DNA from: Puffinus mauretanicus
Lineage: Eukaryota > Chordata > Aves > Procellariiformes > Procellariidae
Assembly (NCBI GenBank): GCA_023333565.1
Contig: JAJKFH010000205.1
Span: 1,426,001 to 1,490,000, forward strand
Direction of reading: 5' to 3'
DNA: 64,000 nt
Both the position numbers and the translations under genes were made by a program. Below are positions 6,601-51,900 of this stretch, piece after piece; the first letter of the stretch is position 1, and the number at the start of each line of letters is the position of its first letter. Below the pieces are notes generated by a model. That model was not told where the DNA came from and made no database searches. It saw only the letters and a list, made by a program, of their open reading frames with translations.

Positions 6601-9131
6601 ATAGTCCTCTGCAATGTAGCTATGCTCATGCAGTATTTCCTCCATGCGACTGAGAGTGATGGCAGCAAAATGTCCTGGGTATTTCAGCTGAAGGAGGCGT
6701 TGGAGATACACAGCTGCTTGACACCCTCCCAGATTTATACGTTTGCAGTTTTTAGCATCCAACCTGAAAATGCAAAGAGACACAACTGAGACTGGAGAGA
6801 TCCACAAGTTCAGCATAAAACAGACCTCCTACTTTCCCCAGTATTATTTAATTTCTGATATGGTCAAGTAGACAAATGAATATTCACAGATAAATACTTC
6901 AAGATTGTTACCAGAGAATCTCACACACCTGCTTTTCTCAGACAACAAGCATAATTACTGCTTTGTTTATTGCAGATACCTCCTGAAAGGCTCTGTTCTG
7001 CTTTAAAAAAACCCAAACATTAAATAATTTTGGCTACAGCAAGGAAATGTTCTATTTTAAGAAGGGAAGTGATAGTTAGTGGAGCTAAAAGTAGTTCCTT
7101 TAACCTTTGTAACATTTCACAGTTGGCCAGGTGTAACCCTCAAAAATTTGAAGCATCTACCAGATATAATAAAGCCATTTCCTGCACTAACGGTTAAAAC
7201 GAGGGGAAAAAAAAGTAATAGAAGAGTAGAGCAACGTAGCAGCATAATCAGAATGATAAAAGCCTCAAGAACTGCAGAAATCTCACGGAGCACTTTCTTT
7301 TGTCCCAAAGCTACTTTAAAACCTAACATATGTTTTTTAATGCCTGATCTTACTTGGGGCAGATAGCCCCTTCTACTTTTGAAAGGACAGATCTATGCAT
7401 GAATAGACTAAAAATACAAACATACAAGGACAGCACAGCTTCTTCAATTCAAAATTCAACAGAACTTAGCAAAATCTGCAGAGCTAGTTTTAACCCGTCA
7501 GTATAAAGTAAGACCTGATAAGGAGCAGGAATACTGAACGCTAGAGGAACGGGTATTTGCATCACTGAAAAGTCAATGACCGACGAAGAGAGGCTGCACC
7601 GTTCTTAAGACACCAAGAACTCACCTGCCTTCTAAGACTGGCAAAACGTGCGTACACTGATAACCTGAAGATATTACCAAACCACTGCAGGGCCAGTTCT
7701 GCCTTCTGTTGTGGTAAAAGCTGTACAAGCTATCTACGCCATAGGACACTTTTGGCACTTGATAACATTCGAAGAGGAGCTCTGACATCATTTGTCTCGA
7801 ATACAGAGGATTGCACACCGCTTCTGTCAAAACAATTGGATGATCAACACAACCCTGTAAGAGACAAAAGAAAAGAAAAATAATAAAGGTCTATAGGGAA
7901 AATCCAGCAATACTTATCCTCGCTTCAGCAAGAACTCCTCCAAAACAGCAATGAGAAAGCACTTTATGTGCAGGCTATTAATCATGTAAGTTAAATTATA
8001 TCTAGTGCTTAAATGGGTAAAAAAGAAGTCTTGTCTACAGCAGGGCTTCCAATGTTAATGCAACCAAAGAATAAACTAAGGGTGGAGGAGAACAGACTTT
8101 TACAAGCATATACGAATTATTAAAAATCTAAATAACCAAAATCTATGCAATGAGGAGGTGAAGTGTGAGGGAAAACTGGTGGAAGTTTAGTTCAACACTA
8201 GGTGAAGCTTTCAAACTGGTGTTGTCATGCAGACAAAATGCTTCATGGTCTGAGGAGCAACTCTCAACTCAGTTTGGAATACAAAACACGTAGTCAATGA
8301 GCACTAGTAATAAGAGCACTATACAGAACTAATAATGTTTAATGTCCTTGTCAAAAACTGATCCTGGACGCTGGTTCTCAGCCACAGCCTGACAAGATGC
8401 CGCAGTCCAAACCTCTCGCCCTGCAGTTGTATGCTCCCACTTTCGTTTTACCACAAAACTATGAAGAGATTAGGAGAATAGCGGGGTTCACAAGACACCC
8501 CTGGGGAGCACCTGGCCCGGCCAGGGTCGCCGCTGCAAGTTGCTCAGGGCCCGTCCACTGCGAGTATCTGCGAGGAGGGGGACAACACAACGTCCCTGCA
8601 CAACCAGGGCGACGCTGGACCCCCCAGTCCCACGACGCACCCAGGCACCTCGTCTCCCTCCACCCAAGCTCCCCCGGGGCCGGGCCTGGTTTCACCGGCG
8701 GCTTCAGGGCCTCGCCCCGGCGTCCCCCGCTCCCCGCCCGGCGGTACCTGTGAGGCGACGCCGAGGCGCTGGAAGACGTGGTCGAGGAGCAGCTCCTGCA
8801 GCTCCAGCTGGACGGGCACGTTGCGGTCGAAGGGCGAGCGGAGCAGCCAGCGCAGCGGCTCGGGGCTCCCCAGGTCGTTGCCCACCTGCGTCTCGGCGCC
8901 GGCCCCGCCGCGGGCCCCGCGGCTGCGCGCCGCCAGCGAGCGGAACCGCAGCAGGGGCTCGGCGGGGACGGCGGGGTCGGCGGAGGCCCAGCCCGCCCGC
9001 GTCTGGAAGGAGCCGTTGTCGATCACCAGCGGCACCGGCTGCGGCGTCCGCACGGCCGCGCTCGGCTCCAGCACCGGGTCGGGGGCCCAGCGCGCGTCGC
9101 GGAAGGCGAACACCCGCGACGTCGCCGCCAT
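542..9131 (-). CDS. ACTR5: ACTR5 (actin-related protein 5, INO80 subunit), coding exons 1-8 of probably 9, 3' end off the window
   Basis: ACTR5 is a nuclear actin-related protein that, with IES6, forms a module of the INO80 ATP-dependent chromatin remodeller, needed for nucleosome sliding, transcription and DNA repair. Eight exons join in phase: 9131-8748, 7854-7625, 6763-6594, 5758-5541, 5197-5015, 2406-2284, 1742-1603 and 674-542, giving 1581 nt or 527 codons. The human protein is about 600 residues, so some 80 residues are missing at the left edge. Visible marks are the actin-fold phosphate loop [11 protein letters not shown] near residue 37, [15 protein letters not shown] near 190-205, the Arg/Glu-rich coiled-coil insert [20 protein letters not shown] near 290, and the actin motif [12 protein letters not shown] near 495. 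Every junction is GT-AG and no frame break is seen. The start was chosen because [14 protein letters not shown] aligns with the human N-terminus; the frame is open upstream but unlike the family. Confidence 0.97.
1135..1408. mobile_element. Non-autonomous hAT-type DNA transposon remnant
   Basis: A 274-base element in ACTR5 intron 7 has imperfect terminal inverted repeats: CAGGGGTCTCCAAAGT at the left, and at the right the inverse of CAGTGGTCTCCAAACT. A CAGKGGTCTCCAAA terminus is typical of Charlie-like hAT elements. The flanking 8-mers (ACTTGGAC and ACTTAAGA) share only ACTT, consistent with a decayed target duplication. There is no transposase frame, so it is a MITE-like copy. Confidence 0.72.
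1603..1742 (-). CDS. ACTR5: ACTR5 coding exon 7
   Basis: Acceptor TTAAAG|CCCGTG, donor GAGAG|GTGAGT, ends in phase 2. Codes [32 protein letters not shown] and the residues leading to YVLER. Confidence 0.95.
2284..2406 (-). CDS. ACTR5: ACTR5 coding exon 6
   Basis: Acceptor TTCCAG|ACTCCC, donor GTGCAG|GTTTGG, 41 codons in phase 0. Codes the acidic linker [20 protein letters not shown] to VEKPVAAVQ. Confidence 0.95.
5015..5197 (-). CDS. ACTR5: ACTR5 coding exon 5
   Basis: Acceptor CTGTAG|GAACTT, donor CAGAG|GTATAA, 61 codons, phase 0 at both ends. Codes [20 protein letters not shown] to [12 protein letters not shown], matching human ARP5. No uninterrupted reading frame extends far past the exon, so it is recognised only by homology and splice signals. 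Confidence 0.95.
5541..5758 (-). CDS. ACTR5: ACTR5 coding exon 4 (coiled-coil insert)
   Basis: Acceptor ATTCAG|AGCTAC, donor GTACAG|GTAATC, ends in phase 0. Codes [20 protein letters not shown], then the Arg/Gln/Glu-rich helical insert that distinguishes ARP5 from actin, through RLDRLLYVQ. This is the most conserved part of the gene. Confidence 0.97.
6594..6763 (-). CDS. ACTR5: ACTR5 coding exon 3
   Basis: Acceptor TTTTCAG|GTTGGAT, donor GAAG|GTAAAA, ends in phase 1. Codes [33 protein letters not shown] and [17 protein letters not shown]. Confidence 0.97.
7625..7854 (-). CDS. ACTR5: ACTR5 coding exon 2
   Basis: Acceptor TTACAG|GGTTGT, donor GGCAG|GTGAGT, ends in phase 2. Codes [20 protein letters not shown] through [16 protein letters not shown], almost identical to the mammalian protein. 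Confidence 0.97.
8748..9131 (-). CDS. ACTR5: ACTR5 coding exon 1
   Basis: Codes residues 1-128, from MAATSRVF to GVASQ, and ends in phase 0 at the donor CAG|GTACCG. It contains [11 protein letters not shown] and the family-conserved stretch [20 protein letters not shown]. Very GC-rich because it lies in the CpG island. Confidence 0.96.
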
Positions 9132-9135
9132 TTTG
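9124..9135 (-). promoter_or_regulatory. YY1-type site at the ACTR5 start codon
   Basis: GCCGCCATTTTG is an excellent match to the YY1 consensus (GCCGCCATNTTG, the inverse of CAANATGGCGGC). It overlaps the ACTR5 initiation codon, a common position for YY1 sites in housekeeping genes. Function is inferred from the motif only. Confidence 0.7.
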
Positions 9136-9760
9136 CGCCCGCCCCGGCTCCCTCCGGCCGGGAACGCGGGCACGGACACACGGTTCCGGGCAGCGGCGGG
9201 GCGAGGGCAGCGCCGGCTGGTGGCTGCGGCCCTCCGCCGCGGGGTCCTGTACCCCCCAAGTCCCCGCCCACGCAGGGGCACCCTCTGCCACTCCGAGCTG
9301 GACTCGGACCTTGAGACCCCCCCGGCGTCTGTCAGCTGCGTGGAGGTGAAGACCCGCGGCCCTGGCCTGCCCAGGCCGCCCTGGGAGGTCAGGCGCACGG
9401 CCTGGGCTTCCGCAAGGCCCCGTCAGCCTCCAGCGTGCACATCTCCCTGCCGAAGAACGGCTGCCAGCCGGCGGCGGCCTCGCCTTCTCCGCGGGCGTCT
9501 GCCGGAGCCGTGCCCTGCGCCGGGGAGACGGGCACGCAGGGCGGGAGCCCTCCTGCCATGGCGGCGGAGGCAGGAGAGGCCTGCTCGGCAAAGCCGGCCG
9601 CTAGCTCGGCTTGGTGACGAGCCGGGAGGGACCCCGAGCGGTGCCGGTGTCGTGACCGAGAGAAGCACTGTGCCGCTGGAACTGAAGAGATCGCAGCCGC
9701 CGCCTTCTGCTCCTTTACGTCGCTCTTGTCGCTGCGTTTGTAGACAAACCGCTAACAGCC

Positions 9761-10899
9761 TGGTTTTCAGAAATGCCGCCAAGCTGCAACCCCCACTGGG
9801 TGAAGTGGGGACTGCCAATATTTAGCATCCTTGAAGCTCGGGTCATTAATGGCTTTTCTCACCTGTTTACCCAATGCACAAAGTAGGGTTAATAGCTTTC
9901 TTTTATCACACAGTGGTGTTATTAACGTGAATTAATAAGAGTTTGCAAAGTTCATTTAGATCTTGGGGTTAAAAGGCTCATTTCAAGGGGCTGTTACTAC
10001 ATAAAAACAAACGCACACAAGCAGGAACGTTAAATGCATCCAGTCATTCATAATGTGCACTTACATAGCTGCTCTCTTCTAAGGTTTACTGAGAGCCACA
10101 CAAACAATTAATTTAGCCAAACAACCCCCTGTGAGGTAAGTGATAGATAATGGGTTTATTTTATTGAAGGAGAAACACACAGTGTGATGAATATTAAGTT
10201 ACCGAAGTCACATCTCTATTCCTACTTTGATCACTGCTGAACTCCTCTACAATTAAGCAATACATTTATAGACACATATCCTATGAAACGTGCTAGCTTG
10301 CCTTTCTCAGAGGGAAGGGAGATAGAAAGGCAATTAAAATACAAAGGTTTATTTTCCTAATGGATTAACTAATAGATGGAAACATAGAGAGTAGGCTAAA
10401 AAATCGAGTCCATGTTAATACAGGACATATTTGTGCTCCATGTCAAGTAAGAGAGCCTGGGAGAAGTAATTTTTAGCTAGTCATCTTCTACACATCTCCG
10501 CAGGATTGATTCTGTTTTATTGATTTCTCAAAAGCAAGCTTGGCTACTCGGTTTCAAAGTGGCTGAAGTGCTTGGTTATCTCCCCCGTATCTGAAGACAT
10601 AAACATACCTTTAACTATTGTTTTAACATAAGCCCTGAAAGCTTCCTAATTTGTATTTATCCTTTAAATAGCAGCTGAAGGAGAATCAAATCAGATGTCT
10701 TCTCAGTTGTTCTTATCCCATGTTTAATCCTTTTTACTCGCTCCCTGCATAGCACAGGGCTGTCCCTTTTGCTACCCATGCTGAGTACATCAGCCGTCTT
10801 CTTGTGATTAACACAGTGATGCAAGAAGAGTTATTAAAAGGTAGTTAGTAAAGCGGAGCAGGCAAGCTGTTCTAAACTTAGTGTAACCTGAAGCAAGCA
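9761..10899. other. Spacer between the ACTR5 CpG island and ADIG
   Basis: AT-rich sequence with no recognised exon or repeat. A weak TATA-like TTTAAATAG lies near 10663-10671, about 230 bases before the ADIG start codon, and may set the ADIG transcription start. The ADIG 5' UTR is probably here. Confidence 0.45.
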
Positions 10900-11026
10900 A
10901 TGAAGTATCCTCTGGTTCCTTTGGTGAATGATCTGACCTTTCCTCTTCTTTTCTTCTGGTTTTGTTTGCCATTTGTAATGCTGTTGATCATAATGATTAT
11001 CTGGCTACAGCTTCTACTTAATGAAG
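10900..11026 (+). CDS. ADIG: ADIG coding exon 1 (membrane segment)
   Basis: Codes 42 residues plus one base and ends at the donor GAAG|GTAAGT in phase 1. Residues about 14-41 form one hydrophobic helix, rich in Phe and Leu, then Ile, with W-L-Q-L-L-L at the end. The N-terminus matches mammalian adipogenin at nearly every position. Confidence 0.93.
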
Positions 11027-14000
11027 GTAAGTTCTGCAGTTGGTCAGATAAAATGCTCCTACATAAAGGCTTTATCTAATAGCTTCATCTTTAAAGCACT
11101 CTGCTAGCTATTTTTAGGCTAATGCCACTTGTCACAGAAGGAAACTAAAGGATTTTTTAGTACTGTTGGTAGCATATGGAAAACCAAAGTCAAATTATTA
11201 TGCTTTTCGGTTAAAAATGCTTATAAGAAGACAAGCTGCTGCTAGCTGTTCTTCCTTATCCTCTCCCTTTTTCTCAGAGGTAATTTAATTTAAGAAAGGC
11301 AAAGGACAAGTAATTTTTGTAATTTTCTATAAAAAATCCCCCAGAAAGCAAACCTAACCCTCTAATTTTGTACACTTTAAAACTGAGGCATTACAGTTCT
11401 CTTGCACTTCTTTCTTTTTTTTTTTTGGCAGGGGGGAATGTTACTGGGGAAGCTGTTAAGGGATTCTTTTATCAATGCTGAGGCTAACAGAAAATTTTTG
11501 AAGAGAGCAGGACATGCATTTTCATTTATTTGTGGAGTTTGCATTTTTTTCTGATCCACCAGTGATTCTTATTTCTAACAAATCAGTAACTAATAACAGG
11601 GTTTGGTTTAGGCTAATAATAGGCTTGTTGATGTACCTAGGAGGATAAAGCCTTGCTAGTTTGCTCTAATCCTGGAGCATAAGCAATCCCAGCTGAGGAA
11701 TCAATCATAAGTTCAAAAGCAGTGATTCTGCCTTTGCAGAACAGCTGTAGGAAGGAAAACAAGAACAAAATTTTACTTCAGCAAGCTTTTACTTCTATTT
11801 GGTGCCCTCTGTTCTTACTTAATAACGTGGTATCCAGTCCTATAATAGATCCCATAGGAATAGCCACAATGAGACAATACCCACAGACAGCAGAGGAACA
11901 GGAGGTACTCACCACAGCAGAAGCTTGTACTCCTCCCTCCTTTCCCATCCCGCATGTGTGTGCATGCTGAATTTTTTACTTTCAGCTCCCATTTTGCAGG
12001 CTTAGCACACAGCTGATGCTCATAACAGCCTCTGCTTGCTGCAGTAGGAAAATATGTTCCCTCCACACATTCAAGTGCACTCTTGCAGGTAACCAAGCAG
12101 AGCAATTAAAAAGCACAGGTTGTAAGAGGTTGTGACAATTTGTACAAGCTACTCTGAGCAGCATAGGCATGGCTTACTGCTGATGCCTGAAGAGCAGAAT
12201 AAAATATCCATTTTGCATAGGTAAAGGGTAACTATGCCACATACTTACATTTAGGTTGAGTGTCAGCTTTTTGCCTGGACAGAGTAACTCTGGAATACCT
12301 TGAATGCCTTGAATTAGATTTTCAGGTTATATCTACTGCATTTATCTTCACAATTTCTGGCCCTATAGTGACTGTTATTAGCACCAGGCCTCCAAGGATT
12401 TCCACAAATGCTCTAAATTCCATGTTAATCAATAAGATTAGACACGTTACTAAACTTTTTACATACTAGTGTATGTATGTTTACGGGATTAGAATATTAA
12501 AGTGTTTTTCAATCACTCTAAAGAGAGAAAACAGTGCTATTTTTAATAACTTCCTAACTAATTCAGTCATATTTACTTACTTTATGCTAGTTTATACAGG
12601 CACAAGTAAAAAGCAGTGTGTGTTTCAGCTCCTCCTTTAATATAGTTGCTGATTAAGAGCTAATTGGTTAAAGTCAAACACTTGTACAGGCCTCTTATTG
12701 CCTAGCTGCGTTTGGAAATCCTTTATTTCAGCTGCAAGAGATTCAGAAGACCCTTGCCCAGCTCCTAGATGGAACATGTAAGGCTTGCAGCTAGGGAGGA
12801 AAAGTCACACACAGGTATTTTACATGTTCTTTTTAAACCTCTTTCTAGCACAGATGCCCAGTGTAGAAGAAATAAAGCAAAAATCTTCTGATGAGCCTGA
12901 TTCTGACTCTAAATTTGAGGATGAACCAACAGAGGAAGAAAACCAAAATGACACATCCAGTATCGAAACGCAAGAGGAGACACAATCTAGCGGATCTCTG
13001 GGAAAACTGAAGCCCAAACCTGCTTATCTGAGTTCAAAACCAAAAAGCCAAAAGCAAAGTCTTCTTGCTGCAATCTCAGACAGCGGGTCTCAGAGCCAGA
13101 GGATGAGACCTTCCCACGTTGAGAAGAGCGATCTCTGTAACATCGTGATGGTGAGTAGTGTGACCAGACTACCTCTTTGCATATCTACTGCTTTCGTGCC
13201 TCAGCTCTGATTTTTTTTTTTTTTCACATTTGCCTGACTCCCCAGCCTCTTGGGTAAGAGAAAGCTGCAAGATTGGTTTCTGCTTGGTTAATGACTAACA
13301 AGTGGTGGTTTTTTTGCTTTCCCTATTTGCAATGACTCCTGTTGTAGACAAGGTAAAGGTAACACAAAATTGTACAGAAATAACTATCATATATGTGTAT
13401 TGTATAAGTATGTGTATATATATTTAAAGATATGTATACATATTTAAAATGTCCTTAAGAATTGAATTTGAAACAGTGAAAATTGCTACCTATTCCTCTA
13501 AGATAAGAGGTTTAGCTCAACTTTATATAGAAACTGTCTTGTTATGTATGGCTGATATTATGTATTTTTAAAAGCTGCTTCAGATTTCTTACTGTGGAGT
13601 GTGTGACTAAAAATTAGATGTATTTCATTTGCTCGATAAGAGCTGAAGCCAGAAGTCTCTTTGCAAACACGACAGTCCCAATCCTCTTAGGCTTTATACA
13701 AATCCAAAAAGATGTATTTGAAGCAGCAGAAGAGCTTAGTGTCTCGTGTGTCTTCTCTTTCCCTGTGCCTTGACTGTATGTTCCTTTGCAGAAGGGGCTG
13801 AGAAGGGAAAGCTGGTCTGTGCCTCCACTATCACTATTCACAGTCCTGACTACTCATTTACATTGCTTGGATTTTTGAATTGCAGCAACTGAGGTACTCT
13901 CTCACACTTACTTCCACCAGCTTTGCTGAAGCAGTACCCTTTATGAGGCTGGAATAGCTAAGGGCTGGTATCATCTTAAATTGCTGCAGCTGTTTGTCTA

Positions 14001-14586
14001 GCACACCCTGAAGCTGAGCTTTAGCATGGAATCGGTAATATCTCAAGTTTTTGACCTCGTTAACACCACCAAAGCAGTACCCAGTCAGTGTAGTAACATT
14101 TTTTTCATTGTTGTTGTTGAAGTGAACATCTGTTCATATATACAAGTGAACAGAGCAGTTTGAAAAACTGGGTTTTAAACTTGTCCCTTGTAGGACATAA
14201 TAGTCATACTGAAAGGTGTGTTAGTTGTGTTGGGTGGGTGAGGGAAGGGAACAAGCACTCATGGTCTCGCATCATTTACATCCTCCTGAAAACTGAACCT
14301 CTTCTGAAAATATCATTGCCACGACAATTCTCTTCCTCCTTTTCTTCACTAGCTGTTGTGCACCATGCTTTCTTCTCTCACCTGGAACTTTATCTGCCAG
14401 TTGCTCCAGATCTCTAATGTCCTGAGGATTCAACTGCTGCCATCCTCTCTGATTATCTACATGGCTCAGCTGCTTGTTTTGCTGGGTGAAAAAGTTGTGA
14501 AAATCCTGGGCTCCCTGAGGCTGGAGAGCAGAAGGCTGTTAGCCTCAGACTTGAGGAGGAGATACAAGCAAACTGGAAGAGAGTGA
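10900..14586 (+). CDS. ADIG: ADIG (adipogenin) locus, extended avian-type reading frame
   Basis: Adipogenin is a small single-pass membrane protein induced in adipocytes and linked to lipid-droplet formation in mammals. Exon 1 reads MKYPLVPLVNDLTFPLLFFW, then CLP and a hydrophobic segment to about residue 41; the human protein as I recall it begins MKYPLMPLVNDLTF. Joining 10900-11026, 12849-13150 and 14353-14586 keeps one frame open for 220 residues, with strong splice signals and AATAAA 30 bases after the stop. A 46-base exon at 12732-12777 can also be spliced in: this restores a mammal-like ARDSED...W segment but leads to a stop at 12889-12891, giving 71 residues. Exon 1 identity is near certain. 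Which downstream structure is the main product is unresolved, and the long C-terminal part is unlike the roughly 80-residue mammalian protein. Confidence 0.72.
12732..12777 (+). CDS. ADIG: ADIG candidate 46-base exon 2
   Basis: Strong acceptor TTTATTTCAG|CTGCAAG and donor AACAT|GTAAGG. Read from exon 1 (phase 1) it codes AARDSEDPCPAPRWN, resembling the DSEEND...W stretch that follows the membrane helix in human ADIG. Read in phase 0 it is also open (LQEIQKTLAQLLDGT), in the frame that continues into the long exon 3. A second AG seven bases in (12737-12738) would join exon 1 to that second frame. Confidence 0.6.
12849..13150 (+). CDS. ADIG: ADIG candidate exon 3 (acidic, Ser/Glu-rich)
   Basis: Acceptor CTTTCTAG|CACAG, donor GTGATG|GTGAGT, 302 bases. 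In phase with exon 1 it is open throughout: QMPSVEEIKQKSSDE, an acidic disordered stretch with many Ser, Glu and Asp, then a Lys/Ser-rich part ending KSDLCNIVM. I recognise no domain. If the 46-base exon is fully included, the frame shifts and stops at 12889-12891. Confidence 0.6.
14353..14586 (+). CDS. ADIG: ADIG candidate terminal exon (hydrophobic helices and basic tail)
   Basis: A long pyrimidine tract leads to TTCACTAG|CTGTTG. In phase 0 from exon 3 the exon is open for 77 residues to TGA. It encodes Leu/Ile-rich segments (ICQLLQISNVLRIQLL, IIYMAQLLVLLGEKVVKIL) and an Arg-rich tail, suggesting membrane or lipid-surface association. I know no homologue; support is splice phase, open frame and the poly(A) signal just downstream. 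Confidence 0.52.
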   Translation: MLCTMLSSLTWNFICQLLQISNVLRIQLLPSSLIIYMAQLLVLLGEKVVKILGSLRLESRRLLASDLRRRYKQTGRE

Positions 14587-14615
14587 TGAAGCTCAGAGAA
14601 CCACCTCAGGGTGGA

Positions 14616-14621
14616 AATAAA
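14616..14621 (+). terminator. Poly(A) signal of the ADIG locus
   Basis: AATAAA lies 30 bases after the stop of the terminal ADIG exon, which supports that exon as genuine and the 3' UTR as very short. Confidence 0.6.
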
Positions 14622-14639
14622 GCAGGTAGTCCCATGACC

Positions 14640-15780
14640 ATTAGCCGCAGTCCCGTTCACCATCGGTGGGAGCTACTACAGTATGGCAGAGGGAGGTTAA
14701 CTCTCTGAAAAGGAAACCTAGTCAAGACTAAGTCGACACATGCTCGGATCACAACAGCTACTTTCAGAGTGAACAGTATTGACTGGCTAAACATTAAATG
14801 GACGACAGCAGCCAGCCTCTTGTCCAGCATGTGGGTGCGTGCTCTGCTCCCCTCCCACTTTAGAGAGGGATGACTTGCTTTTTTTTTTGTAAGGATCAAA
14901 CACTACACCAGCACCAGTGTGATACTCTCTGTTCACCACTACAGATCTTTGGTTTCAGACAAATAAGATCAAGGCAATAGCTCTCAGTAGTGGTTCTTAC
15001 TGGAGCTTACATGCAGTACAGCCCAGTGATTATTTTACTTATACTGCAATTAGCGCTTTTCTGATCTCCAACTTGTGAGTTCTCAAAGTAGGAAACAATT
15101 TTTCGATTGTCTAATAAATGAAACAAGCCTAGCTCCAATTAACAAGAAATAATTAAGCCCTTAGCAGATACTGAGCATGCATTTCCTTCATTTCTGTCCA
15201 GGAGATGCCTTTTCAGCACAGCTGCCAGGCTGGTACAAGGTTAGATTGCAGCCCAAAGAGGCACTCATAGACAGATTGGTTTATGCAGTTGGTGGGACCA
15301 CAAGGAGGTTGGTGGGGCTTGGATGAGCCATAATTTTGTGGCCTGAGGGTTTATCCAGTTGTCAGGCTGTGAACAGAACAGCTGTTTGCTGCTGGTGTTG
15401 ATGCGCACATTCAACAAACTTTTTTTAAAGAGGACCTGAATTAGGAAATCACATCCCAAAAAGTACATTGCTGCTTGTGAAAACGTTTGTCCCTGCTCCT
15501 CGTGTGCAGTAACTCTGTCTCCCCAGAGTCTTGCATGGGCAGACTGTGTAACAGTTACACTAACCTGCACTGATTATGAAGCATGCCTTGTTTATGTTTA
15601 CTTGTCTTTCCCTCCCCATCCCTTGAAGTCCGCATGTCCAAATATTTGTCCAGAGCAGTATGCTCTGAAATAAAACTTGTTTGTCCACATCTTTATTTTC
15701 GTAGGTCCTTTATTTAGAGAGAAAAAAAAAAATATTTGCCGTTCCTCAGCTGTTTGCCGAGGAAATCTCCGTCTCTCCCT
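14640..15780. other. Spacer between ADIG and the downstream CpG island
   Basis: No exon, repeat family or RNA gene recognised. Short open frames on the minus strand have no splice or homology support. Confidence 0.5.
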
Positions 15781-16234
15781 CTGCCCAGCGGGTGACCCCG
15801 GGCTCGGGTACTTCTCCCTCGGGGACGCCCCGTCTCTTCCCCCCGCGGAGAGCGGGCCGGGGTGGGTATTTAAGGCAGATGCTGAGGGACCGCTTACAGC
15901 TGCAGTTGTTACCGGGGGCGAGCTCGGGCAGCGGCGTGGGGTCCGCCCCGGCCCCGCCTCTCCGCAGCCCGCTCAGGGGCCGGGCTGGGCCCCCCCACCG
16001 CGGACGGAGGACGCTTCGCCTCGCCGCGGAGCTCCGCGCCCGGCCCCGGTGCGAGCAAGGATCGGGGCTGCGGCGGGGCTCGGGGCCGCGGCGGGTGGGT
16101 GCGGGCGGCACGGCGGGGGCGCAGCGAGGCGCTTCGGCTGTCGTGCCGCGGTGGGATGTCGAGAGAGCTCCCGACTCTCGTCGTCTTCTCTTCTCCGGCT
16201 CGGCCGCTATTGTCTGCAGCGCTGACCTGACCAG
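15780..16234 (+). promoter_or_regulatory. ARHGAP40: CpG island with probable ARHGAP40 5' exon
   Basis: A GC- and CpG-dense block contains the TATA-like TATTTAAG at 15867-15874 and ends at the splice donor CCAG|GTAGGC (last exon base 16234). A start about 30 bases after the TATA-like box would give a first exon of roughly 335 bases. ARHGAP40 is the next plus-strand gene, so this is probably its promoter and 5' exon. The frame entering 39790 is open through this exon but has no ATG downstream of the predicted start; an ATG at 16156 opens a 24-codon upstream frame instead. Confidence 0.6.
15867..15874 (+). promoter_or_regulatory. TATA-like element
   Basis: TATTTAAG in an otherwise GC-rich island, 360 bases before the splice donor; predicts a start near 15897. 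Confidence 0.4.
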
Positions 16235-19189
16235 GTAGGCTGATGCTGGGTGGTGGTAGGGAGGCTCTGGCTGTGCCCCGGGGGTTTCTGTTGCTTGAGA
16301 TGCTGTAACGTTCGGTGCTAAATTGCTGCTTCTCCTGCAGAATGTGGCTTCCCCTGCCCCGTTGGGGAGTGGGGTTATTGTTTCAGCTACAGCCCCCCTG
16401 CTGACATCTCAAAGCTGTCTTCCCTGAGCCAGTGAGAAGAACGTTTTCTGGTAGTCTCAAGGTTTTTTCTCTTTTCCACCTAGTCTATGTACATTTAAAA
16501 TCATGTTGGCAAGAAGGACTTAATTTTGCAGCTGAATCGCTGGGGATGCCTCCTGTCTCTGTGGGATTTCACTTGTTTAGGCTACTTGAATATGTTGGAC
16601 TCTGTTAATCTCAGTTCCATATGAAACCTTATTATCTTGAGGCAGTTGCCAAAATGCCACCATTCAAGTTAAAAACGTTTTACTGGGATCATCACTGCAA
16701 AGAAGTAGATGAATTGAGGTGAGTAGGTAAACTACCTAAAGGTCTAGTAGAATATTGCCGTTTGTTGTATTGCATGGAGGTGTTTGAAAGCCTGATGATA
16801 CCAAAGTATATGCTTTGGGTAGCTTTTAGTCTGTGTAAATACACTCAGAATAGCTTTAGCTTGGCTGGGCTGGCTGTCGCTTACAATGTCACTGTAATAG
16901 CAGGGAAGTTGGTGCCAGCATGCAAAACCTGCTTGAGAAACCTACTTTGAGGATTACTGGTTCCTGCAGAGTTCCCCAGTACCACAGCTATGCTTATATG
17001 GTTTATACCTGGTTTTCCTGTCTCTGAGCTATAAGAAATACTGCACGACTAAATATTTGGGTATTAAGAATAAAACTTTTATGTGGGGATTTGGCTAAAA
17101 GTAGTATGGAAAGGCCATTTTGGCTCTGCTGTGGGTCTGTGCTTCTTGCAAGAGGTTGATGATGTGTGAACCTGACCTGGAGAATGGGCCCAGACCTACA
17201 GACATGGGGACTTGGTTTGAACCCTGTAGACTTCGTGTTGCGGTCCACCTGTGTTAAAACCTTTCTTACCCTTAATCTAGCTGTAACGCCTGCCCCGGTG
17301 CCTATCTTTGGTGAGCGTTTGGAGTTCGCAGTGCGAATGCAGCATGACCTCCCAGCTGCCTTGTAGTCTGCAAGCACTTGAACAGCATCAGTGAATTTGT
17401 GCCTTAATTTCCCCTTTGTTTTTGTGTGTAAAAGCTGTTTTCTGGGCCTCAGCAGGAGCATTAGAACTTGTAGACTTGGATATTGTAGTAGAGCTCCTTC
17501 CAGTGTGATTGTTTGCAGTGATTGCAAACAGACGGGTTTTTTTTTTTTAAATGAAGGCTTTTCTATAGTTTTGGATTTAATTCACCTGTAAGGTCTCTTG
17601 TTCACCTGGGGCAAAGCATCATTTCTCATATGCACCCAGCAGCCTCCATCCCAGGGCACTTCTATATTGTAGCAAGTATGTATTTTTCTTAGGTGCAAAA
17701 GTTTGATACCAAAACCTGGACTGAACGCTTTGGAGCACAGCATTAGTGGTAGTTTCTTTTTGGCAGTTTCTTTTGACTGAGGTTGAGCCTCCTGGGAGAC
17801 AGAAGCCTGCATTTCTGTATACCAAACTGTACTGTAGATGGTTTATGACCTTTTGCACATCACTTAATGTCTCTTCTTTCCCTCTTCTTATTTATAAAGC
17901 ATTTACTTTGCAGGCATGTTACAGGGGTGGGGTTTGTTAAACTTTAAGACTCCATTGGGAAGCATTGTACGTTGAAAAACGTAGATATCAGTTTCTTTCT
18001 CCTCTGAGCTCAAAACTCTGGAAGAAGTCGATAAAAGACCCAAACCCTAATCTAGTGTAAACTCAAGTAACCTAATGTGTTTTGATGGATTTCAGTGATA
18101 AACATGTCTGATAGCAGTATGTCAAAGCATTTTGGGATAAGGTCTTGCAGCATGTTGGGCTCCCTAACTTGTAAGTGGGGCCTCTGTTGGTAACAGCTGG
18201 GTGAGCTGTGGCTGTTTACATCCTTCTCCTGGAGGAGTCATGGGATGATTTAACTTGGCTGACATCTGTTTTTAGTAAAGAGGAATCGGGGTTCTTGGGT
18301 CCAGCTGCATGGAGAAAAATAATGCTCAAGATTTGGCTCATGGTCCCTTGTGCCCCAAGAGGGCGCAACAGCAGCAGCGTAGCTCTTGGATTAATCAAGA
18401 CATGTTTTTTGAGATGATGTTTTGGATGCTGAAAGGGAAAACCTTTTAAGTGTTGTTTTCCAGTTCATAGCATCTTTGATTAGTTGGATGGAGAATCGTG
18501 TCACTTGTCAAAGCTTTATAGATTGAAACGGGTGAGGGTCCAGCTTGCCTAAAGGAAAAATATCACTCCCTGCAAGTACAGGGGAGTGTTGAAACGGGGG
18601 CGCGCAGAGGTTGTGGCACCTCAGTCCTTTACAACTGGCCAAAGCCCTCAGCATCCTGGTCTGGCTTCTGTTTTGACCCTGCTTTAAGCAGGGGGTTGAA
18701 TGAGGTGGTGACCTGAGGAGCCCTTCACAGGTACTTGTGATAGCACATGTAAACTGCTCCGGGGAACAGTGCCCTTCTCTGCACGGAGCAAAGGACCCCC
18801 CACTCCTTTAGTGCCTCGTTAAAAATCACTGTGTGACTTGCACTGGGGTCTTCTGCTTTGGCTGGGTGAGGAGGGCACTAAAGGTTACAAGTGTACATGC
18901 TATACGCTCTTAGCTTTTTTATCCTTTAAAAGTTAGAGGCTAGAATGCATGACCAAGAATACAGTATATTCTGGCTTTTTATGTCATTTAGGCTCTCAGT
19001 TCAGCAAAATGTTTGCTTAATCAGCGGTGTTATGGCCCATACGCTTCTATTCCAAGCAGTTTAAGTGCTTTCAGTGGAGACATAAAAATGTCTTAGTTGT
19101 GACATGGTGTTTGAGCCTTCCTGCTGCAGATGTAAAATCCATATGGCAGTAAGTCTTAATTGAAACCTGCTGGAGTTATTTTTCTCCCG

Positions 19190-48900: not shown

Positions 48901-51900
48901 CCTCACAAAGGTACTGGACTGCTTCCAAAGTTCAGGTGGATTAGAGTGGGTATCAGGCTGTCTTTAATTTAGATAAATTGGGATCTCCGATACAGTTAAA
49001 GAGCGATGCTGAAAAGGGAAAATATTTATCCAGCTGTGGGTTGAGTAGAAGTAGTTTGGGGCTTTTGTCTGGTGTTGAAAACAAGAGAATGAGTAGATGC
49101 TTGGTTATGGTAAGGAATGATAAAAATGCAGCAAAACTTGATATCTGTGATGATACTTGCACTGAACCTTGTGTGTGTGTGTTTTCCCTTAGAAATTTAA
49201 GATCCCTAAGGGCAGACTAGGAGTGACCAGGATTGGAGATCTATCTGCTCAGGACATGAAGAAGATCCCCACGCTGGCTCTGATTGAACTAACAGCTCTC
49301 TGTGATGTTCTGGGCTTTGAGCTGAAGAGAAACAAGGCAGCAAAACTGAAAACAACAGGTTACTTGTATTTCATCTTGATTTTTTTTTTTTTGAGTGCAT
49401 TTTTTACATTGATCTTCTCATAGGTTTGTGTTTGAAATGTTAGAACAGAGAGGGTCTTTGATAAGAAACCTTGTGACAGGTGTTTTTTCCTTGATCAGAA
49501 TTTCTCCTGGAAGTCACTGGATCCATAGCATCAAGACCTAGCACCACATTTATCTCTGACTGTCAAATGCACTTGCCCTGTTGACTGTTCCTCTCTTTTT
49601 CTTCAGAACCTGCACTTATAAAATGTGCCCTCTTAGTCTGCAGTGGTAGATATATCCCTGACATCTGTGTTAGTGGAGATACAGACTTATAACATGTTGT
49701 TTCTGTTGTAGAGAAAAGACTCTTTGGAGTTCCACTCAACACCCTGTTGGAAAATGACCAAAAACTGCTCCCCAATACCAAGGTCCCTCTGTTACTCCAG
49801 GCAGTAAGTTCCCTTCTGTTTCATTCACCACTTCTGATCCTCAGGGGTGGGAAGCCTGTCATAAGGAAGGGCTGACTTCTCATCCTCTGTGCCTAAGAGT
49901 TTTCTTTTTTCCCCTTTTAATAGCTGCTGTCCTGCTTGGAAAAAAGAGGACTTGAAACAGAGGGCATTCTGAGAGTTTCTGGGTCCCAGACCAGAATCAA
50001 GGTATGAGCTCTTTAGTAGTGTTCAAAAGTATCGGAGGTGATCAGGGAGCGTGTTGCTGAAGCAAGTATCTAAATAACCTGGATTGTCTCATCTGCCTTC
50101 CCAGTACAACTAGAAACATCCATGCTGGGAAATCTGGGAGCGTCTGCTGTGAGGGTCTCTGCACTCTTTTGACTTGATGGGTTGCCCTCCTAGTGCTCAG
50201 CTACAGAATTTCCCTTGTATTTGCTTATTAAAGCATGTAATAAATTCCATCTTTTTTCATAGAGTCTGGAACAGAAGCTAGAAAGGGACTTTTATACTGG
50301 CCTTTTCCGCTGGGATGAAGTCCACCAGAATGATGTATCTGGGCTACTGAAAAGATTCATAAGAGAGCTGCCGGCCCCACTGCTGACAGCAGAGTACCTC
50401 CCTGCTTTTGCTGCTGTACAAAGTGAGTCCCTGCTTTGGCTGTTTAGCATCAGTTTGCTGGTTTGTGCTTTTCTTGCAAAGCTCTGCTGGTCTTGGGCTC
50501 TCCTGTCAGGTGAGTTGGGAGCCTGTGGATTCCATGGGAATATAGAGCACGAAATGAACTATAGCCAAACTCGGTGTGCTGGGTGCTATATGTATTATTA
50601 CGTGTTAGCCCGAGTCTGGTCACTGGTGCTTGGTTGCATACATCTTTGTGTAGGAACGCTGCCCTGGAGGCTTAAATTTATGTTGTGTCATTTGAGGCTG
50701 CAAGGTTGCTAACCATGAATTAGGACAACTTGATAAATAACGACATGCAGGCTGAGCTGTGGCAGCTGGCCAGGGTGCGCAGTCTTGGCTTGTCTGCAGG
50801 GAATGCAATGTTCTGCAAGCACCTTATTTTGAGGTTTCCTCGATAACTAGCTTGAATGTGTTAAGCTAACTGTTTAAGTGCACAACTTTTTTTGTACAAG
50901 AAATGGGGAACGATGGGACTTTTGATGCCCTTCAAGGGCATCAGACTTGCTGGTAGACTATGTACTCTGAAACAAATCAGCCAGTCTTCTAACACATAGG
51001 TAGCTCACTTCATAAGGGCTGTATGAGCCTGATTGCTTCTGTAAAACAAGGTCTCAAATCCTAAATGACAAACACTACAATAATTAATTGCCTTATTCCT
51101 TGGGGGATTCCCCTACTCAGAAGGAACACTGTTAGGAGCCTGAATCCTTTCTCCTGTTGTCGCTCACCCTCTCTAGACATTCCAGACCTGAAGCAAAGAT
51201 TGCAAGCTCTAAACCTCCTGATCCTGATTCTGCCAGAGCCCAACAGAAACACTCTAAAGGTAACTACCTGTTCTGGATTTAACTGGAAAACCGTGATTTC
51301 ATTCCAGGTTTTTATTCAGCTTTTGCAAATAACATACATCATGCTACTTGGTTTTATTTCACTGACTTGAGAATGGAAACCCATGATGGGGGGAGCGGGC
51401 AAACCTCAAGGCTGTGCAGTGAATGTAAGCTGTAAGCACAGTCTGCCTTTTGGGTACAAACTTAAGAGCAGTACCTTAAGAGCATCCTGTTTAGAAACAC
51501 GCCCTTCCTCTTCAGTGTGTTAAAGCACTTCATTATGAAGTGAAAGATGTATAGGTCTTACATTGTCTGTGGGCATGCCAAGGTATAGGGAAAGAGATTC
51601 AGTCTTTTGATTCATGGTTTGTGGTGTTGTCATCATCTATGAAGGACAGTTTCAATTTAAAAAAAAAAAAATATAAAAAAAGCTACTAAGCTTATAACTT
51701 CCTACCCTTTTCTGATCAGAAGGCATTTCAAATCCTTTCACCTACTGCTTTTTGAAAGAATAAATGCTGATGGGATCGGCTTTGCAGGCAGTGCACAACC
51801 TCTGCCTTTCTGTGCTTTATAAGAGCTGTGGTGGTTGTTGCTGATGATTTTTGGTGGTTTTTTTTTCTCCTGAATAGTTCAGCTTCCAGGTAATAAAGGC

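Follow-up and report, generated by a model that had tools for sequence, protein, structure and literature searches.

A 64,000-nucleotide (nt) stretch of the Puffinus mauretanicus genome (contig JAJKFH010000205.1, positions 1,426,001 to 1,490,000; hereafter the window, within which all positions are counted) carries ADIG, the gene for adipogenin, and the best explanation of the locus as a whole is a bird ADIG that probably encodes a three-part sauropsid form of the protein of about 220 residues. Among sauropsid entries in databases, a protein of this length is the commonest form. In the passages of PMC13083654 considered here, adipogenin is described as an 80-residue microprotein and a recently reported cofactor of seipin that favors large lipid droplets; by the same account, it stabilizes the dodecameric seipin ring and promotes the growth of existing droplets. 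For the long form, exon structure, reading phase, splice signals, and conservation in birds, turtles, the gavial, and lizards are directly observed. Splicing is indicated indirectly, through contigs whose short length does not fit unspliced DNA.

The coding chain lies on the forward strand and consists of the coding part of exon 1 (10900-11026, 127 nt, residues 1-42), exon 3 (12849-13150, residues 43-143), and exon 4 (14353-14586, residues 144-220), which translate from the window into 220 residues across canonical splice sites. The initial annotation of this DNA, made from the letters alone, had proposed that these exons continue in phase when a 46-nt exon is skipped, and that a stop is followed closely by AATAAA. 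Both were reproduced: the stop codon TGA at 14587-14589 ends exon 4 (14353-14589 including the stop), and the polyadenylation signal occupies 14616-14621. Exon 1 ends in the donor AAG/GTAAGT and exon 3 in ATG/GTGAGT; scored with a donor matrix, these rank in the top 0.08% and 0.41%, respectively, of all GTs in the window. By pyrimidine content, the acceptors of exons 3 and 4 fall within the top 2.3% and 0.3% of all AGs in the window. The open frame of exon 3 is by itself just mildly unusual: when the 5.4-kb region was simulated 500 times with a first-order model, 25 runs contained a frame of at least 142 codons on one strand or the other. When adipogenins of lizards, turtles, and the gavial were searched against the window with tblastn, the same three stretches came up in the same frames, with local matches extending some codons past the splice sites; a similarity check of this kind had been suggested with the initial annotation, and the outcome bears the exon chain out. 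We are therefore highly confident in the gene structure as read from sequence, with homology rather than frame length as the deciding evidence. In the genome searched (1.21 Gb, 2370 contigs), the long protein matches a single locus, exon by exon, among the best 11 candidates scored.

That exon 1 is adipogenin, as first proposed, was confirmed by Pfam family PF15202, which the 220-residue form matches with an E value of 1.1e-12 (48.3 bits, and 54.5 bits for exon 1 alone, with a curated cut-off of 27 bits), over the N-terminal part of the profile. The adipogenin chain of the seipin complex in PDB entry 9c8d is matched as well (E value 4.2e-12; profile E value 5.1e-17). Residues 1-42 of the window protein align with the Pfam family and 1-44 with the 9c8d chain, and nothing aligns beyond. 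The long form covers profile positions 1-42 only, and positions 43-79 at the C-terminal end stay unmatched, while the opossum protein covers positions 1-68. Shared with mammalian ADIG/SMAF1 are thus the N-terminal 42 or so residues, with the MKYPLVPL motif and the hydrophobic segment. To judge by these comparisons, the window gene is orthologous to adipogenin through exon 1, and its C-terminal half is a different one. In the sauropsid alignment, a large share of exon-1 positions vary little or not at all, which makes seipin binding a likely shared function. Exon 1 has diverged strongly in galliforms (P0056 from chicken and P0057 from pheasant, in the numbering of relatives used below), where the FFWFC stretch is lost; the chicken exon is 63% identical to that of the window, compared with 76-79% for six aligned lizards.

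The same six lizard proteins, placed in one alignment with the window protein, show where conservation lies beyond exon 1. The second half of exon 3 is 35-54% identical to them, and residues 144-208 of exon 4 are 45-54% identical with no gaps over 65 residues. In shuffle controls with nine non-avian proteins, exon 4 reached z scores of 16.4-33.3 in all nine, and the second half of exon 3 reached 4.8-18.4. Over the full chain, turtles match at 58-59% identity, the gavial at 53%, and lizards at 43-50% in six cases and 40% in a seventh. The last 12 residues are only 14-33% identical to the six lizards, and this tail also changes frame as it drifts: in the eagle protein, the final 16 residues match window positions 14570-14617 in another frame by tblastn. 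The initial annotation had suggested that birds may make an adipogenin with an added acidic linker and a second hydrophobic, basic-tailed module. The linker and the module are supported by the conservation of the exon chain in sauropsids and by two transcript-like contigs described below; turtles, the gavial, and lizards have them too, so they are no addition of birds. Conservation does not extend to the basic tail.

Relatives were collected in three protein searches, which reach only proteins with shared short exact words and similar length. The first search yielded 103 proteins with an E value of at most 10 out of 686 candidates, a profile search 112 of 4549, and a short-form search 37 of 37, pooling to 148 distinct proteins. 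These were all sorted by tblastn against the window, ignoring frame. Exons 1, 3, and 4 were matched in 61 proteins, exon 1 alone in 34, exons 3 and 4 in 14, exon 3 alone in 11, exons 1 and 3 in 10, exon 4 alone in 6, exons 1 and 3 with an alternative terminal exon, E4', in 5, exons 1 and 3, an extra exon, and exon 4 in 2, and exons 1 and 4 in 2. One protein each combined an upstream exon with exons 1, 3, and 4, exons 1 and 3 with E4' and exon 4, and the upstream exon with exon 3 and E4'. Exons 1, 3, and 4 are thus all matched by 65 of the 148, a count of proteins rather than species, several being isoforms of one species. One of these (P0068) reads exon 4 in another frame, and some of the proteins, judged by eye, take acceptors inside exon 3 or 4.

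The named sources include many birds, the turtles Pelodiscus and Terrapene, Gavialis, and, among squamates, Podarcis, Varanus, Pogona, Anolis, Sceloporus, the worm lizard Rhineura, and the geckos Heteronotia and Paroedura. The mammals among the names shown, Sus and Monodelphis, match through exon 1 only. No amphibian or fish appears among the names shown for the 148 proteins, where one name stands for each protein cluster and the absence of a group is no proof. The highest identity is that of a partial northern fulmar entry, at 97% over 65% of the query. Snake models from a boa, an elapid, and a viper (P0096, P0097, and P0106; 146-148 residues) match exons 1 and 3 and lack the exon-4 module, which may have been lost in snakes. 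In the barn owl Tyto alba, two separately named loci, LOC116964310 and LOC122152425 (P0021 and P0022), encode 215 residues each and are either a duplication or an assembly artifact. Among the 34 proteins with exon 1 alone, the short bird and reptile entries P0118, P0124, and P0140 resemble, by eye, exon 1 read into intron 1; P0124 runs on past exon 1 as GKFCSWSDKMLL, the same as intron 1 of the window itself. Such short entries, called adipogenin or left unnamed, are probably annotation artifacts.

Two of the relatives come from transcript-like contigs, whose source tag "lgn" we take to denote Logan assemblies of sequence-archive runs. P0020 has 228 residues and 6 members, with a longest contig of 1098 bp among 3; P0027 has 221 residues and 5 members, with a longest contig of 1091 bp. 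They are nearest to passerine proteins, and both read through both junctions. As contigs of about 1.1 kb compare with a gene span of 3.7 kb in the window, both are best read as spliced RNA; a processed retrocopy is a possible alternative.

A different start is suggested by the 14 proteins that match exons 3 and 4 with no exon 1 detected, such as isoform X3 of a falcon (P0038) and isoform X2 of a duck (P0085); some of the 14 are flagged as partial at the source. Transcription of exons 3 and 4 may in some cases begin at another site and leave out the helix that binds seipin. A tentative alternative 5' exon, adjoining the ACTR5 promoter, lies upstream on the forward strand (9773-9844, the end set by eye), with weak tblastn matches from P0001, a Mycteria model (9773-9841, 70% of 23 residues, E value 1.7e-4), and P0084 (9773-9847, 52% of 25 residues, E value 1.6e-4). 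P0084, from a contig of at most 1993 bp and closest to the eagle protein, at 93% over 116 residues, joins this exon to exon 3 and E4', bypassing most of exon 1 through an acceptor that, by eye, lies inside exon 1, and so lacks the exon-1 membrane helix; RNA of this form seems to exist. These proteins would fit a model in which exons 3 and 4 form their own transcription unit, with a promoter near ACTR5 and a product that lacks the adipogenin helix; forms joined to exon 1 would then be minor or artifactual. However, exon 1 is joined to exons 3 and 4 in the 65 proteins counted above, from birds, turtles, the gavial, and lizards, and the transcript-like P0020 and P0027 both hold exon 1. We consider a separate unit improbable, and the independent overlapping gene that the initial annotation had offered as its alternative is not supported, exons 3 and 4 being in phase with exon 1 in all of these groups.

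The 46-nt exon-like stretch (12732-12777, forward strand) raises another alternative, namely that the functional product is short and mammal-like, consisting of exon 1 and this exon, with exons 3 and 4 mostly 3' untranslated. Its splice sites are usable, its inclusion shifts the frame to a stop after 71 residues, which is a mammal-like length, and the join scores 63.0 against the Pfam profile versus 59.4 for the join to exon 3, a gain of 3.6 bits. Yet the stretch was matched by none of the 148 proteins, although an exon of just 15 residues could easily be missed with the cut-off applied. Its peptide is no nearer to mammalian tails than shuffled sequences are, the score being reached by 522 of 1000 shuffles for each of two tails, and homology to the mammalian tail was not supported. 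In addition, the stop would lie about 260 nt 5' of the exon 3/4 junction. Nonsense-mediated mRNA decay would be expected from this arrangement, and the stretch is a possible poison exon. A short product would moreover leave the protein-level conservation of exon 4 unexplained, and we regard it as very improbable.

Mammalian adipogenin has about 80 residues, compared with about 220 in the sauropsid long form. A pattern of S-D/E-G-N seen by eye had suggested that the mammalian tail resembles sauropsid exon 3. We compared two mammalian tails (9c8d and opossum) with 14 sauropsid proteins, and the likeness found no support in these 28 shuffle-tested comparisons. The lowest counts were 8 of 1000 shuffles for the 9c8d tail and emu P0011, and 15 and 25 for the opossum tail and snakes P0096 and P0097, which looks like about chance for 28 comparisons, with the 8-of-1000 case appearing compositional. 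The opossum and 9c8d tails match one another with a score of 65, reached by none of 1000 shuffles. As far as these alignments indicate, mammals and sauropsids share exon 1 and differ in the remainder.

Within the long protein, exon 3 opens with an acidic part (residues 43-95, net charge -12), which is probably a disordered linker, and continues with a better-kept basic part (residues 96-143, net charge +5). Residues 144-208 form the second hydrophobic module and residues 209-220 a variable basic tail. Hydrophobic stretches lie at residues 16-34, 140-158, and 169-187 of the window protein. The latter two are separated near a conserved LLPSS, after which an amphipathic basic sequence follows. 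The second stretch is stronger in lizards, with a mean hydropathy of 2.2-2.7 (P0069, P0074, and P0081) versus 1.5 here. AlphaFold2 models of the eagle and monitor-lizard proteins place a helix in exon 1, a disordered linker, and a helical C-terminal module, with low to moderate confidence; in the eagle model, the predicted local distance difference test (pLDDT) score is below 50 at residues 44-95 and 100-108. The exon-4 peptide matches no Pfam family at E values up to 1, and so has no family match to lipid-droplet hairpin or LDAF1-like proteins. Among the best 25 of 41 Pfam families, PF15202 included, the others match part of the 43 aligned members with a best E value of 3.3e-05. By phmmer, residues 122-179 gave weak hits to henipavirus matrix proteins (E values 1.2-1.6), which were dismissed as chance.

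The likeliest reading of the exon-4 module, offered tentatively, is an anchor in a membrane or on the droplet surface, held by the acidic linker as a flexible tether. As in mammals, the exon-1 helix would bind the seipin ring in the endoplasmic reticulum (ER). The exon-4 module could insert into the ER or the lipid-droplet surface as a second anchor, tying seipin to the growing droplet. LDAF1/promethin is a seipin cofactor in lipid-droplet assembly, and the analogy we propose, as a small hydrophobic helical seipin partner, would be one of function only. The terminal exon E4' (13792-13878, forward strand) is open in phase after exon 3 and yields a protein of 171 residues that lacks the second hydrophobic module. 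It is common to the passerine proteins P0062, P0063, P0065, P0066, and P0067 and to P0084; P0018 overlaps it together with exon 4, partly in another frame by eye. Its use may make a form without the second anchor. The wider idea, in which sauropsid adipogenin is a two-anchor seipin cofactor with E4' as a switch and mammals have an unrelated short tail instead, is speculative, and we think it rather unlikely as a whole.

In the main rival to the second-anchor reading, the long protein is made as described, but its C-terminal module would be either a degradation signal or a second transmembrane helix of the ordinary kind, without a droplet role, and all seipin work would fall to exon 1. The module is possibly dispensable, as it is absent from the three snake models and from the five passerine isoforms with E4'. 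Its retention in the six aligned lizards, better than that of the linker, argues against this explanation, which we consider somewhat doubtful.

Several observations weigh against the proposed explanation. With a mean pLDDT of 57, the structure models are weak; the C-terminal helix is broken at residues 171-175 in the eagle model and unbroken in the lizard model, and a Foldseek search with the low-confidence eagle model gave no PDB matches. The 5' part of exon 3 is poorly kept, with 23-28% identity to the six lizards; its shuffle z scores range over 0.5-10.8 in the nine non-avian relatives, and for the gecko Paroedura (0.5) it does no better than shuffles. Among birds, we compared the next 17-19 residues of 11 proteins that hold exon 3 and continue past it with the read-through of intron 3 in the window. 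In 10 of the 11, these residues were 53-100% identical, versus 68-92% for exon 3; the eleventh, an annotated Amazona protein, was 0% identical and may be spliced there. Since exon 3 is no better kept among birds than this read-through, avian exon-3 identity says little about constraint, and we dropped it as proof. The case for constraint is carried by the deep comparison with non-avian relatives. The conserved intron start itself (13151-13207, the first 19 or so codons in the exon-3 frame) is a possible retained-intron isoform or regulatory sequence.

The long gene model is already in databases, under the name adipogenin or as an uncharacterized locus, and is not new as a model. Predicted models from Haliaeetus (P0003), Terrapene (P0055), Podarcis (P0069), and chicken (LOC101749666, P0056) have the same exon chain and 219-224 residues, and the chicken and Tyto orthologs are named just "uncharacterized protein". 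No description of the long form was found among the papers listed in a literature search that covered few subscription journals, judged by titles and the beginnings of abstracts, and it is undescribed in the passages of PMC7966854, PMC13083654, PMC12363775, and PMC5067096 considered. The same search found nothing on LOC101749666 or on adipogenin in birds or reptiles, and no title on avian adipogenin among those listed. If the long form is real, mammalian adipogenin would be just one of two designs, the sauropsid form being nearly three times as long, and the pair would form a natural contrast for asking which part of the protein determines the size of droplets in fat tissue.

The surroundings of the gene were inspected as well. 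An Rfam scan found no family in 9000-17000 at gathering scores. On the reverse strand, an open frame at 8547-9131 holds the first coding exon of the divergent neighbor ACTR5 (ARP5), matching solved ARP5 chains by phmmer with an E value of 1.8e-44. A RhoGAP-coding exon of another neighboring gene lies on the forward strand at 50266-50421 (Pfam RhoGAP, E value 6.3e-08); by synteny this gene is probably ARHGAP40, a name that presumes the human gene order. With a divergent ACTR5 and a RhoGAP exon, the neighborhood is consistent with the human ADIG-ARHGAP40-ACTR5 region.

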